From a virus, in the IMG/VR virus record IMGVR_UViG_3300044732_000488, positions 1 to 29,953 of that record: a stretch of DNA of 29,953 bases; one strand, written 5' to 3'. Below the pieces are notes generated by a model, which was not told where the DNA came from, did no database searches, and saw only the letters and a list, made by a program, of their open reading frames with translations. The translations under genes and the position numbers were made by a program. Below, piece by piece: positions 9,037 through 25,130 of this stretch (the stretch's first letter is position 1; every line of letters begins with the position of its first letter).

Positions 9037-10926
9037 TTATCCTAGTGAGGCGTTTTTAATGATGTTGCGATCTAGTGATTGCCCCGTTGTAACGTCGCTA
9101 GGAACTACGTATGCTTTAACTGGTGTTTGCTCATTCGTTGCCATAATTCCAGCTAATTGATTAACTCCGCTATTACCTACTACGTTGAATTGTGGTGCGC
9201 TTCCTGCTGCTGCTCCGCCTCCTGCGCTACCTCCTGCCATCGAAGGTGCTGCACCGCCTCCAGCACCGCCTCCGCCTCCACTTAATAACGCTCTTGCTCT
9301 GGCTAAATTTGCCAAAATAGTAGCCGCTCCACTTGCGTAAAATGCTATTTTAGTTGATAGGTAAACTGCTGGAGCTGCTGGACCTGCAACCGAAGCCGCA
9401 CCCGCTGCGCTTGATTCAGTTCCTTGCATCATTTTTGAGAATGCAATAGCACTATCCGCACCAATTTGAACGAGTGCAAGTGCTTTCATTGCCGCTTGCC
9501 CCGCCTTTCCTCTTGCTAATCCGTTGGCTTGAATTTGCTCCAATAATTTTTCCCCGCTTTGAGCGATATTTGCAATCGCGTTAGTAGTTAATTGAAATTG
9601 CTCTATTCTTCTTTGGCGTGCCTCCTCTGCTCTTTCATTTCTTGCGGTTTCACTATCATAAATTATTTGCGCGGTTTGTAATTGAAATTGTTGCTCTGCT
9701 GCAATTTGATCCTCTTTAAACTTTGCGTCTTTTTCTCGCTTTGCTTGGTTTGCAGCGTCTAAATTTTCTAACGATGTAACGTCAAAGTCGCCTTGTATTT
9801 TGTCATTTTCTTCATTAAACTCCTTATTGAGTTTTTTTATTTTTTCCTTTTTTTCAGTTTCTGTAAGTTCTTCTTTTTTGGCTGCTGCCGCTGCTTTTTT
9901 TGCCGCTTCAATTCTTTTCTTTTCTTTTTCATCCTCACGCTCTTTATCCGCTGCCGCTAATTCTCTATTCAATCTTTTTGCTAACTCAACTCGATCCTTT
10001 TCAGAATTGCCCTCATCTTTTAAAGCTTCTAAATATTTGTTTTTGGCTTCAATTTTCTTTTTAGTAAATTCATCTAATTGATCGCCCTGCTGCTCTAAAT
10101 ATTTTTTATTTAATGCAAGTGATTTGTCGGCTGCCTCACGCATTTTATCCAACGCTCTTGAAGCATCTGAAGTAGCACCGACAAAATCCGTAACAGTATT
10201 GAAAATAGTACCGAAAAAATCCCCTACGCTTTTAAGTCCAGGCAAAAAATTTAAAACCGCCTCTTTTACTTTGTCAAAGTTTTGGTATAATGCAACCAAT
10301 CCAACTACAAGCGCACCGATTCCCGTTCCTATAATTGCCAATCTTAGCAACTTCATTCCCGTTGTTGCTGCGCTTGTTGCCGCTGTTGCCGCTACTGTTG
10401 CAGTTGATTGCGCTGCTGTTGCAATTACATCCTCTTTTTTTAATGCAATCGATCCAGTTTGAATAAAATTATTTGCAACTTGAACTATATTTAGCGATTT
10501 AATTACTGCTCCTAATTGCTTAAAACTATCTACGCTCTCTCCTATCTGTTGAAGTCCCGCACTCAAAGCCATTGCGCTTTGAACTTTTAAAAGTGTCTTT
10601 TCAACTTCCGCAGATTCAGCACCAAATAAAGCCATTCCGCCCTGCACCGCAGCGAACCCACCTGCAACTCCAGCAAGTGAACTGCTCAAAGCCTTAAATT
10701 TAGCATCGGGATTAAATGCATCTGTTAACGCTTTCGCATCCCCGATTTGGTCTTTTAATTCTCCGGCTCTTTTTGCCGCTTGAATAGCCTCTTGACTTGT
10801 CGCTCCGAATTTACTTGACAATTCAGCTACCTCCGCTTGCGCTGCTCTTAATTGTGAGCGTAATGATCCAACCGCCTCGTCTGCGTTGCCTTGTATTTTT
10901 ATATCAATTACTTTCTCTATTGCCAT
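9037..10926 (-). CDS. Tape measure protein
   Basis: This 629-residue protein has a long N-terminal coiled coil (LRSQLRAAQAEVAELSSKFG), hydrophobic helices near residues 190-215 (LLRLAIIGTGIGALVVGLV), a Lys/Glu/Ala-rich coiled coil near 270-430, and a Gly/Ala-rich segment near 560-590 (SGGGGGAGGGAAPSMAGG). This is the standard make-up of a siphovirus tape measure, which sets tail length. At about 0.15 nm per residue it predicts a tail near 94 nm, a rough inference. The gene is preceded by a 44-residue gene and the tail-tip gene, and followed by the protease-scaffold gene. Confidence 0.85.
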   Translation of the reverse strand: MAIEKVIDIKIQGNADEAVGSLRSQLRAAQAEVAELSSKFGATSQEAIQAAKRAGELKDQIGDAKALTDAFNPDAKFKALSSSLAGVAGGFAAVQGGMALFGAESAEVEKTLLKVQSAMALSAGLQQIGESVDSFKQLGAVIKSLNIVQVANNFIQTGSIALKKEDVIATAAQSTATVAATAATSAATTGMKLLRLAIIGTGIGALVVGLVALYQNFDKVKEAVLNFLPGLKSVGDFFGTIFNTVTDFVGATSDASRALDKMREAADKSLALNKKYLEQQGDQLDEFTKKKIEAKNKYLEALKDEGNSEKDRVELAKRLNRELAAADKEREDEKEKKRIEAAKKAAAAAKKEELTETEKKEKIKKLNKEFNEENDKIQGDFDVTSLENLDAANQAKREKDAKFKEDQIAAEQQFQLQTAQIIYDSETARNERAEEARQRRIEQFQLTTNAIANIAQSGEKLLEQIQANGLARGKAGQAAMKALALVQIGADSAIAFSKMMQGTESSAAGAASVAGPAAPAVYLSTKIAFYASGAATILANLARARALLSGGGGGAGGGAAPSMAGGSAGGGAAAGSAPQFNVVGNSGVNQLAGIMATNEQTPVKAYVVPSDVTTGQSLDRNIIKNASLG

Positions 10927-22286: not shown

Positions 22287-22579
22287 ATCACTAAAGTTTT
22301 TTTATTCTTTTCTTTTAAATACTCCCGAATCCAAAAGCAAACTTCTTGGGTTGATAGCTTGTAAGTTTTTCCGTACTTGCCCAAACTTCCGTTTCTTATT
22401 GCTAGAGTAAACTCATCATTTGAAATTCTAGGAAATTCCGATATAATATCTTGGACCATTGGTTGAATATTAAAAGGATCTGTTTTTGTGCGTTCTATTG
22501 CGACTGCTATTGATTGATTTAAATTAAATTCTCGGATTTGCAATTCGTGCTGCTGCGGTGATTTCTGTAAGTTGCTCAT
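22283..22579 (-). CDS. Small helical replication-region protein, 98 residues
   Basis: The product begins MSNLQKSPQQHELQIREFNL and contains an alternating helix region ending VCFWIREYLKEKNKK. Proteins with SNDEFTLAIRNGSLGKYG and a later aromatic helix occur in Bacteroidota mobile elements near replication genes. It overlaps the initiator gene by 56 bp and the next gene by 4 bp. Its function is not known; a loader or adaptor is possible. Confidence 0.65.
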   Translation of the reverse strand: MSNLQKSPQQHELQIREFNLNQSIAVAIERTKTDPFNIQPMVQDIISEFPRISNDEFTLAIRNGSLGKYGKTYKLSTQEVCFWIREYLKEKNKKTLVI

Positions 22580-23117
22580 TGTTTTTATTTTTATTAGGTT
22601 TAAAATTACTTTCGTTTTTTATCCAAGTTTTAATGCGCCTATCTAGCGACCAAGTTTTCTCTAGTTCCTGCCGGAATTTAGTATTTGATTTATTTGGTTC
22701 AGTCCAGTAGTCATAAAAATCTTTTAAAGTATCTCTACCAAATTCATCAACAAATGGTTTGAGTGTGGCAGCAAATTTTAATTTGCGGCTATCTATATTA
22801 TTATCTTCTTTTACTTTCTCTTTTACTTCTACTTGTTCGGTAGGGGGTTGATTACCCCCTTGCCTACCCCCTACGGTAGGGGTTAAAATAGTTTTAGTTT
22901 TATCCTCATATCCTTTTACTTGCGAATCAATACTATTTGTTTGACTAATGTAGGCAAATTTAGCCATTCCGGTTAGGTTTAAAGGCTTAATTCCTAAGAA
23001 CTGTCGATCAAGTAAGGCATCAATAAAAGCTACCTTATCTGCATCGTTTTCCAATTCATTATAAACGTCATAATATGATCTAAAAAAATTAAATCCTTTG
23101 CGTTTGGTTAGTTTCAT
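22524..23117 (-). CDS. Replication initiator-like protein (DUF6291-type N-terminus)
   Basis: This 197-residue protein has an N-terminal domain with FNFFRSYYDVYNELENDADK and FIDALLDRQFLGI, typical of a Bacteroidota phage replication family, and a C-terminal domain with FYDYWTEPNKSNTKFRQE and SLDRRIKTWIKNE. Between them a low-complexity linker (near residues 78-93) is encoded by a GC-rich inverted-repeat cluster that may be the origin, as in lambda O. It probably starts replication with the RecA-fold ATPase encoded downstream. It is preceded by its own promoter and a 105-nt structured leader. Confidence 0.7.
   Translation of the reverse strand: MKLTKRKGFNFFRSYYDVYNELENDADKVAFIDALLDRQFLGIKPLNLTGMAKFAYISQTNSIDSQVKGYEDKTKTILTPTVGGRQGGNQPPTEQVEVKEKVKEDNNIDSRKLKFAATLKPFVDEFGRDTLKDFYDYWTEPNKSNTKFRQELEKTWSLDRRIKTWIKNESNFKPNKNKNNEQLTEITAAARIANPRI
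22838..22886. repeat. GC-rich inverted-repeat cluster, candidate replication origin
   Basis: Inside the linker of the initiator-like gene are four blocks related to CGGTAGGGG(G)TT, two in each orientation. CCCCTAC-G-GTAGGGG at 22868-22882 is a perfect palindrome with 7-bp arms. AGGGGGT-TGATT-ACCCCCT at 22842-22860 is another. The blocks stand out sharply in an AT-rich genome and are flanked by AT-rich DNA on both sides. Origins inside initiator genes are known from lambda. Confidence 0.5.
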
Positions 23118-23223
23118 ACTATTATAAAAGTTAAAATCCGATACAGTCAGCGTAGTGTGAGATTTCGCTTTCCGTATCGGATTCTTATAATATTTTACGT
23201 TGTAATAAATCTCACTAAATTAC
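23118..23223 (-). ncRNA. Structured 5' leader of the replication operon with complementary hairpin loops
   Basis: Hairpin 1 (GUAAU / AUUAC, 23223-23202) begins about five bases after the promoter box and carries GUGAGAUUU in its loop. Hairpin 2 has a perfect 10-bp stem AAUCCGAUAC / GUAUCGGAUU (23183-23174 with 23144-23135), an inner AGCG / CGCU stem, and an apical loop holding AAAUCUCAC. The two loop sequences are perfectly complementary over 9 bases, allowing a kissing or pseudoknot structure. Hairpin 2 is followed by UUUUAACUUUU. The initiator ATG is at 23117. Confidence 0.65.
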
Positions 23224-23227
23224 GCCT

Positions 23228-23257
23228 CAAATATAAAAATAAATTCTAAATAATCAA
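23228..23257 (-). promoter_or_regulatory. Promoter of the replication operon
   Basis: TTG (23257-23255), 19-base spacer and TATATTTG (23235-23228) match the Bacteroidota sigma-A consensus TTG-N17-23-TAnnTTTG. The -33 element overlaps the end of the NinB-like gene. Predicted start is near 23223. Confidence 0.75.
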
Positions 23258-23704: not shown

Positions 23705-23731
23705 ACGCCCCGAATTAACGAGGCGTTTTTT
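23705..23731 (+). terminator. Stem-loop with T run facing the plus strand
   Basis: ACGCCCCG (23705-23712) and CGAGGCGT (23719-23726) form an 8-bp stem with one wobble and loop AATTAA, followed on the plus strand by TTTTT. It lies between two minus-strand genes, so it points against the operon. It may stop antisense transcription or act as an mRNA hairpin. Confidence 0.5.
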
Positions 23732-24031: not shown

Positions 24032-24526
24032 TTAAAGATTAATAAAAATAGTTTCTTGTTGTTGTGTTATGTTGTATTTGGTTTTTACTTGATCCAATGA
24101 AAAGCCGCCATCTTTTGCCTTTTTTAGTATTTCGGTTGTGGCGTTTGGTTTTGGCTCGACTGCCTTTTGCCCATCGTCATCATCTGCGCCAACGCAAACG
24201 AATGATTGAAGCGAATATCTACGTGCGTAACTTATTCCCGATCCCTGCGCTTGTGCATCGTTGATCTTGTTGTAAACTATTTCCGTAAGTGATTCCATCA
24301 TCTCGCCAGTTTCGTGCAGCAAAATAGTTTTGACAAAGTTTTTGCCATCCACGTGAACAATCGGCTGGAGAACCGAAATCCCGTTTGCGTTTAGCGTTGG
24401 AATAACTGCCTCCCGGATCGAGTTTAAATCTGCGTATTTGCTTTTAAAAAATGGATTTACTGCGCCTTTTTTGGCGTTGCTCATTTCTGACTGTGCTTTT
24501 AGTAAAGCGGTTGCAATGTGTTTCAT
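24032..24526 (-). CDS. erf: ERF family single-strand annealing protein
   Basis: This 164-residue protein shows the ERF pattern: VNPFFKSKYADLNSIREAV near residue 22, a strand/helix core, then QAQGSGISYARRYSLQSF and VGADDDDGQ near residue 100-115. ERF proteins anneal complementary DNA strands and promote phage recombination, often for genome circularisation or repair. The C-terminal tail is short and charged. The gene lies in a recombination operon under a structured leader. Confidence 0.9.
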   Translation of the reverse strand: MKHIATALLKAQSEMSNAKKGAVNPFFKSKYADLNSIREAVIPTLNANGISVLQPIVHVDGKNFVKTILLHETGEMMESLTEIVYNKINDAQAQGSGISYARRYSLQSFVCVGADDDDGQKAVEPKPNATTEILKKAKDGGFSLDQVKTKYNITQQQETIFINL

Positions 24527-24555: not shown

Positions 24556-24999
24556 TTAAAATGATATTGCCATACTACTTTTGCGTGGCGTTGTACTAAC
24601 TTTAGGCACCTGAACTCCTGCCGCATCGTATATTTCGTTTTGCGATTTCAAAGCTAACTTTAGTAAGTCCTCACGTTCTTTTAATTCTCGGTTAATGTCG
24701 CTCCACACTTCGCAATCTTTAAAGTTAATCGTTTCCCCTCCGCTTCGGAATGTACCTTTTAGTCCAAACGCTTCAAAGTTTTCCTGCGGTAATACTTTTA
24801 AAAGTTCGGCGTTAATTACTTCCAACGCTTCGCCCATTCTTTTGGCTTGCGCTAATAGTTCAATTTTGTCAATCTCGCCAGCATCTAACACTTCTTTGAT
24901 AAATGTTTTTGCAGATAGCTGGATCTCTAGCTTGTTTGGAAGGAAATTTTGCGTGTCAATCTCTTGTTGGCGCATTAACTGGAATAAATCTTTACTCAT
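24556..24999 (-). CDS. Hypothetical first protein of the recombination operon
   Basis: This 147-residue, helical, acidic protein begins MSKDLFQLMRQQEIDTQNFL and contains KEREDLLKLALKSQNEIYDA near residue 108. It precedes ERF, an SSB-tailed protein and a NinB-like protein, so it may assist recombination or protect DNA, as with other proteins placed upstream of annealing genes. The leader has a kissing-loop candidate and an attenuator-like hairpin. Its start-codon region matches a predicted antisense RNA from 27690-27746. Function not recognised. Confidence 0.75.
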   Translation of the reverse strand: MSKDLFQLMRQQEIDTQNFLPNKLEIQLSAKTFIKEVLDAGEIDKIELLAQAKRMGEALEVINAELLKVLPQENFEAFGLKGTFRSGGETINFKDCEVWSDINRELKEREDLLKLALKSQNEIYDAAGVQVPKVSTTPRKSSMAISF

Positions 25000-25011: not shown

Positions 25012-25096
25012 AAAAAATCCTAACTTAAATCCTACTGGTCAGAGTAGGCAAAATTAGGATCGATTATAGTTTTTCTCTCAATCTCTGACCAGATTG
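25012..25096 (-). ncRNA. Structured 5' leader of the recombination operon with kissing-loop and attenuator-like hairpin
   Basis: Hairpin 1 (CAAUCU-GGUCAG-AGAUUG, 25096-25079) begins about six bases after the -7 box. Hairpin 2 (25060-25017) has outer stem AUCCUAA / UUAGGAU, an internal loop, inner stem CCUACU / AGUAGG and apical loop CUGACC. That loop is perfectly complementary to loop GGUCAG of hairpin 1. Hairpin 2 is followed at once by a U run (25017-25012), 12 bases before the ATG at 24999. It could act as an attenuator. The same DNA could also hold two operator copies with core CTGGTCAG. Confidence 0.7.
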
Positions 25097-25101
25097 TTCT
25101 G

Positions 25102-25130
25102 CAAATATATAAAAAGTTTTTAATCTGCAA
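25102..25130 (-). promoter_or_regulatory. Promoter of the recombination operon
   Basis: TTG (25130-25128), 18-base spacer and TATATTTG (25109-25102) match the Bacteroidota sigma-A consensus. The -33 element overlaps the end of the methyltransferase gene. Predicted start is near 25097. Confidence 0.8.

Follow-up and report, generated by a model that had tools for sequence, protein, structure and literature searches.

The rep leaders of pT181 and pIP501 are attenuators that work with antisense RNAs or alternative hairpins and involve contacts between RNA loops. The P4 immunity RNA and other c4-type RNAs combine mutually complementary words, located ahead of a phage replication operon in its leader, with termination control, and the P4 CI RNA serves as the model for a trans-acting leader RNA in immunity. 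Purine riboswitches attain a compact fold through the kissing of two loops and can control a terminator. The nearest phage analogue in position to the leaders reported here is the putRNA of HK022. According to the accessible part of PMC9378689, it is about 70 nt long, forms two hairpins just 3′ of a phage early promoter and is conserved in structure; its antitermination activity is factor-independent and operates via the zinc-binding domain of the RNA polymerase β′ subunit.

Here we describe leaders in Bacteroidota phages in which the loops of two successive hairpins are complementary to each other. The open-access literature yielded no description of such leaders, nor of a comparable RNA that controls early genes in these phages; this absence is weak evidence, subscription papers and preprints being outside the scope of the search.

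Architecture of the two leaders

The viral record analyzed, hereafter the window, is 29,953 bases long, and its minus strand carries the lambda-like recombination genes NinB, ERF and NinG. The minus-strand leader at 23118-23235 opens with a TATATTTG promoter and runs through a 5′ hairpin and a linker into the two-part hairpin 2, behind which come a U-rich tract and an ATG (Table 1). The consensus to which the promoter conforms, TAnnTTTG, is that of the Bacteroidetes -7 box (PMC7366714). A preliminary description had placed at 23118 two hairpins whose loops share nine complementary bases, and both the sequence and our detector bear this out: L1 and L2 are complementary over 9 nt. The plan was described accurately; the unit itself starts a few bases further upstream, at the promoter. 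Similarly, the "perfect 10-bp outer stem" exists, as part of a longer P2 of 14 bp that includes two G-U pairs (23185-23172 with 23146-23133). The inner stem, P3, has 4 bp, AGCG/CGCT (23169-23166 with 23152-23149). Stem 1 is weak by itself, at about +0.3 kcal/mol in the detector, and the pseudoknot-free fold of the leader has a z-score of -4.4. In the computed fold the linker also pairs with the stretch that precedes the ATG; this pairing was rejected, as inspection of alignment A1 by eye indicates that it is not kept in L004, L113 and other homologues. The ATG of the downstream gene is at 23117, and a phrog_19415 member is also hit by a "primosomal protein" profile. Within this gene, the inverted repeats GTAGGGGG/CCCCCTAC at 22837-22882 score in a promoter-free scan.

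The second leader, at 25109-24997, has its parts in the same order and a different sequence, as previously proposed: its L1 word is GGTCAG, and its L2 word, at 25044-25039, is the complementary CTGACC. Elsewhere on the minus strand, a GC-rich hairpin at 23705-23726, ACGCCTCG-TTAATT-CGGGGCGT, lies just 5′ of the ATG of the NinB-like gene (23694) and has no partner hairpin.

Table 1. Parts of the two leaders, and the genes behind them, in window coordinates.
Feature	Position	Strand	Basis
First leader, promoter -7 box TATATTTG	23228-23235	-	sequence; fits Bacteroidetes consensus TAnnTTTG
First leader, 5′ hairpin P1, GTAAT/ATTAC, 12-nt loop	23202-23223 (arms 23223-23219 with 23206-23202)	-	sequence, detector; P1 covaries
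First leader, L1 kissing word GTGAGATTT	23207-23215	-	sequence; double changes with L2 among homologues
First leader, A/U-rich linker AACGTAAAATATTATA, hairpin 1 to hairpin 2	23186-23201	-	sequence; A/T-rich in all elements
First leader, hairpin 2: P2, AA/GA internal loop and P3; terminator-like	23133-23185	-	detector, fold, covariation
First leader, L2 kissing word AAATCTCAC, in the P3 loop	23157-23165	-	sequence, covariation
First leader, U-rich tract TTTTAACTTTTA 3′ of P2	23125-23136 (approx.)	-	sequence
Gene behind the first leader: 197-aa replication-associated protein of the DUF6291/phrog_19415 type	22524-23117	-	profile matches
Second leader, promoter box TATATTTG	25102-25109	-	sequence
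Second leader, 5′ hairpin CAATCT/AGATTG, loop GGTCAG (L1 25090-25085)	25079-25096	-	sequence, detector
Second leader, hairpin 2: inner stem CCTAC/GTAGG, loop TCTGACCA, then U tract	25016-25061	-	sequence, detector, covariation
147-aa gene behind the second leader, first in the operon with ERF (24032-24526)	24556-24999	-	

Comparison with chance

At each TAnnTTTG site, the detector scores three energies: those of the two hairpins and that of the duplex between their loops. Only 2 of the 76 such sites in the window pass -20 kcal/mol; these are the two leaders, with the top two scores. Equally good scores were obtained by none of 20,000 dinucleotide shuffles for the 23118 leader and by 1 of 20,000 for the 25012 leader, and 4 of 20,000 yielded such a plan with kissing words of 9 nt or longer. 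Among 1,930 promoter-like sites, 98 matched at -18 or better, versus 2 in one shuffle set; at -20 or better there were 37 elements in 25 phage sequences, with 0.67 expected. A detector based on the plan finds the element with almost no false positives.

In a loop-swap test, hairpins were picked on stem energy alone and their loops compared afterwards. Complementarity to the leader's own partner averaged 6.05 nt, versus 3.59 nt to a foreign partner (19 non-redundant leaders), and when loops were swapped between leaders the observed sum was reached in 0 of 100,000 permutations. The concern that shuffled AT-rich leaders might show equal complementarity is thereby answered, the plan not being reproduced by shuffling. 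Chance complementarity is ruled out by the shuffles, the loop-swap test and the covariation described next.

Covariation in three families

Three families, whose members were collected mainly by sequence similarity, were aligned: the homologues of the 23118 leader, of the 25012 leader, and of the leader in phage 11b. The proposed pairs are formed in 98.0%, 93.1% and 97.9% of cells, respectively, and pairing falls to 24-52% when the partners are slid by 1-3 columns. Pairs changed on both sides number 11, 17 and 13, including 3, 4 and 2 in the kissing helix, the counts of the second and third families being somewhat biased because some members are detector matches (L165 and L082 in the second family; L023, L113, L115 and L117 in the third; none in the first). 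The covariation score of the three families was equalled by no shuffle. In P1 of the 23118 homologues, for example, UA is replaced by CG in L113 and AU by UA in L033, and the second-leader homologues L002 and L086 display a natural compensatory change in the kissing words, from TGGTCAG/CTGACCA to CGGTCAG/CTGACCG. Lack of covariation in homologues had been named as a result that would speak against the structure; it is instead strong, and it is found in all three families and in every helix, the loop-loop helix included.

In the paired columns, G-U occurs in 51 cells versus 12 for A-C, which points to selection on the RNA of the gene-sense strand. What the comparative evidence demonstrates is the pair of hairpins with the inner stem, the helix between their loops, selection acting on the gene-sense RNA, and the linkage to promoter and gene.

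Anatomy of the element class

The anatomy was derived from a set of 48 non-redundant elements, which have the plan, and not the sequence, in common. The box TATATTTG is exact in 37 of the 48, though the detector took any TAnnTTTG, and hairpin 1 follows it at a distance of about 5 nt (interquartile range 3-6). Typical sizes are 5 bp for P1, 7 bp for the kiss, 17 nt (median) for the linker, which is A/T-rich in every element, and 11 bp for P2, with a 23-nt loop region. Hairpin 2 is mostly two-part, with an outer stem, an internal loop and a short inner stem capped by L2. The 5′ arm of P2 mostly begins AA(G)CC, and P2 is present in the computed fold of 47 elements. T accounts for 65-83% at each of the first 8 positions 3′ of P2, and the sequence is A-rich beyond. 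Loop sequences differ nearly everywhere; a conserved core of the riboswitch type is absent, no sequence being common to all 48 elements.

By eye, the internal loops are of several types, among them TGAA/GGA (L024, L047, L112); another, AGTA/GAA (phage 11b, L010, L012, L032, L037, L085), resembles the loop E (sarcin-ricin) motif. Variant leaders in L018, L038, L105, L117 and L139 have a longer linker with a third hairpin, and a hairpin 2 without the inner stem. In the leaders of L112:5764, phi19:1 and phi10:1, a common stretch, TAATTTAATAGTTATCGGTAATCTT...ACCGT, and a small hairpin lie between the U tract and the ATG, which is at least ~45 nt beyond the U tract.

Several further features were considered and rejected. 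A rigid-rod model would need the linker length to scale with the stem lengths, and no such scaling is seen in the 48 elements. A leader peptide is not conserved, an ATG-initiated upstream ORF being present in only 8 of 48. As for an antisense promoter, antisense TA..TTTG occurs 6 times, versus 10 in shuffles, and antisense TATATTTG not at all.

Distribution and relation to known RNA families

Among replication-gene relatives with enough upstream sequence, 42 of 71 are preceded, within 700 nt and on the sense strand, by an element; the same 71 loci contain none in an equal downstream window and none on the antisense strand. The detector scored no element at 29 of the 71, a few of which have the plan when inspected by eye. 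Further elements precede genes for Prim-Pol/DUF3987 and BT4734/PriCT primases, ResIII helicase, MT-A70, YopX and NUMOD4-HNH endonuclease, and one phage may contain several elements with different words. The proposed location before replication genes in Bacteroidota phages thus holds for diverse phages. Free-standing endonuclease genes of the NUMOD4/HNH type have their own copy of the leader (L104, L114, L017, L112, L099, L155), and the leader may therefore travel with such genes.

The element is also found in the cultured phages 11b, phi13:2, phi19:3, phi19:1, phi10:1 and P12002L (phi19:3 was represented by the region only, and phi13:2, phi19:1 and phi10:1 by their first 50 kb), where the genes behind it match phrog_19415, primosomal or replication-initiation profiles. 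The element is therefore directly testable. There was no match at -20 in Riemerella phages CRP5 and RAP44, Flavobacterium phage 6H, Nonlabens phage P12024L or the first half of crAss001, and no element was detectable in the related phages G006, G008, G013 and G025. At ~9830-9917 of P12024L (L219), only a plain terminator-like hairpin, ACCCTATC...GGATAGGGTTTTTATT, stands between TATATTTG and an ATG, the kissing 5′ hairpin being absent; this is perhaps a simpler version of the kissing-loop leader. In Flavobacteriaceae host DNA, sampled as 826 kb of five genomes together with short loci of nine, only 3 of 1,075 sites gave a match; these were weak, one of them a tRNA and none convincing.

A search of the whole window against Rfam 15 gave 0 matches. 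Four stretches with eleven detected elements, searched at E-values up to 3, gave none on the modelled strand; one sub-threshold antisense match over one element, to mir-454 (24.4 bits versus 60), is attributable to chance. A DUF805b RNA (RF02914, 49.5 bits) lies at L127:8779-8811 (+), between both kissing-loop leaders of G001, a relative of the window. With blastn, the sole match of the leaders to named phages was that of phage 11b to itself, as expected if the sequence is unconserved. Ordinary sequence and Rfam searches miss the element because the words change freely while the pairing persists. Taken together, the covariation, the shuffles and the lack of an Rfam match support the earlier suggestion of a real RNA regulator, possibly of an undescribed class, the regulation itself being what we infer. 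The leader appears to represent a structured RNA class of Bacteroidota phages that is outside Rfam and has a new architecture.

Proposed mechanism and alternatives

We regard it as fairly probable that the leader acts in cis to attenuate the transcription of early operons for DNA replication and DNA metabolism. Transcription would start just 3′ of TATATTTG, and the small hairpin P1/L1 would fold first. About 17 nt further on, the two-part hairpin 2 (P2, internal loop, P3) would fold, and L2 would kiss L1, the two loops being joined by about 6-9 Watson-Crick pairs. This kissing complex would arise as L2 leaves the polymerase, that is, earlier than the 3′ arm of P2. The kiss would either alter the rate at which P2 closes or build a shape read by RNA polymerase or by a protein, and in this way would set the share of polymerases that pass the terminator.

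The anatomy suggests that hairpin 2 is an intrinsic terminator within the leader: P2 looks like one because its base is GC-rich and the start codon is directly preceded by a U tract; AT-rich initiation regions may account for part of this tract. This putative terminator sits between promoter and gene, so that expression would depend on read-through. We favor the notion, short of proof, that kissing raises read-through; a trans factor may be involved, and a signal may be sensed. Because P2 and the kiss are compatible, the leader would not be a classical two-helix switch with a mutually exclusive antiterminator. A classical antiterminator was also rejected on the computed folds: with its 3′ arm unmade, the 5′ arm of P2 pairs upstream by at least 50% in 10 of 48 elements, and P1 and P2 coexist in most folds.

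If attenuation is correct, the leader controls when the virus copies its DNA. More tentatively, the elements may form a superfamily of RNAs free in sequence and conserved in shape, in which the kiss gates an intrinsic terminator, each operon has its own orthogonal pair of words, and the shape, whatever its sequence, may be read by RNA polymerase itself or by a single factor from host or phage; they would then be a portable early-gene module of Bacteroidota phages. Were it true that the kiss gates the terminator, these phages would offer naturally occurring transcription switches that are simple and mutually orthogonal.

It is unlikely that the folded leader acts as a put-like RNA, staying on RNA polymerase and conferring resistance to later terminators or pauses with no dedicated protein. 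Two hairpins at the extreme 5′ end of early transcripts, near the promoter, recall HK022 putL (PMC9378689, accessible part), and shape is kept where sequence is not. However, putRNAs are alike in sequence and need no terminator in the element, and kissing is not mentioned in that part of PMC9378689; in the present leaders hairpin 2 bears a U tract, and the loops covary freely.

An effect on translation or mRNA stability, in which the kissing fold would shield the 5′ end or shape the initiation region and the U tract would be incidental, strikes us as similarly improbable. Such an effect would suit the end of hairpin 2, some 15-20 nt 5′ of the start codon in most elements, but not the many in which the next ORF starts 25-50 nt further on. 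Moreover, it is T, not A, that is enriched directly 3′ of P2, and together with the GC-rich stem base and the preceding A's this is the signature of a terminator.

Could the terminated leader instead act in trans, pairing via L1 or L2 with other nascent leaders of the same phage in dosage feedback or superinfection immunity? The strong link to replication genes and the fast change of the complementary words between phages are consistent with this, as is one subfamily (L010, L011, L012, L032) in which the L1 word (AGTGCAG, AGGCAG, ATGCAG) is repeated a few nucleotides 5′ of the start codon and changes along with L1, so that L2 could alternatively pair there. Nevertheless, the third copy is confined to this subfamily and was rejected as a general feature (own 4, versus 2.0 by permutation), an antisense promoter is not conserved, and a single phage may have several elements whose words differ, HNH endonuclease and methylase genes being among those that they precede. 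We therefore consider a trans-acting RNA quite unlikely. Inverted repeats acting in the DNA, as an operator or a replication origin, would fit the nearby replication genes and are hardly credible given the excess of G-U over A-C, the strict orientation behind a promoter and the several copies per phage before unrelated genes.

Comparison with known systems

The reading that we prefer, attenuation in cis, has partial parallels among the systems introduced above. As in purine riboswitches, two hairpin loops kiss; in contrast to them, the leader has no conserved ligand-binding core and no Rfam match, and its L1 and L2 words are free to change. With the rep leaders of pT181 and pIP501 it shares loop-loop contacts and a position ahead of a replication gene, where it has a putative intrinsic terminator and they have an established one, but most members lack an exclusive antiterminator, there is no antisense promoter, and the kiss forms within one leader. 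The P4/c4 RNAs, too, have complementary words ahead of a phage replication operon, whereas here a third copy of the word is not general and each phage can have many independent elements with different words. Like the HK022 putRNA, the leader begins an early phage transcript with a pair of stem-loops. The 48 elements, however, have no sequence in common, whereas putRNAs share sequence, and the leader has kissing loops and a terminator-like hairpin of its own, whereas putRNA acts on later terminators via RNA polymerase (PMC9378689, in the part accessible). Thus, cis-acting leader RNAs with a terminator are already a familiar kind, among which the present one may deserve a class of its own.
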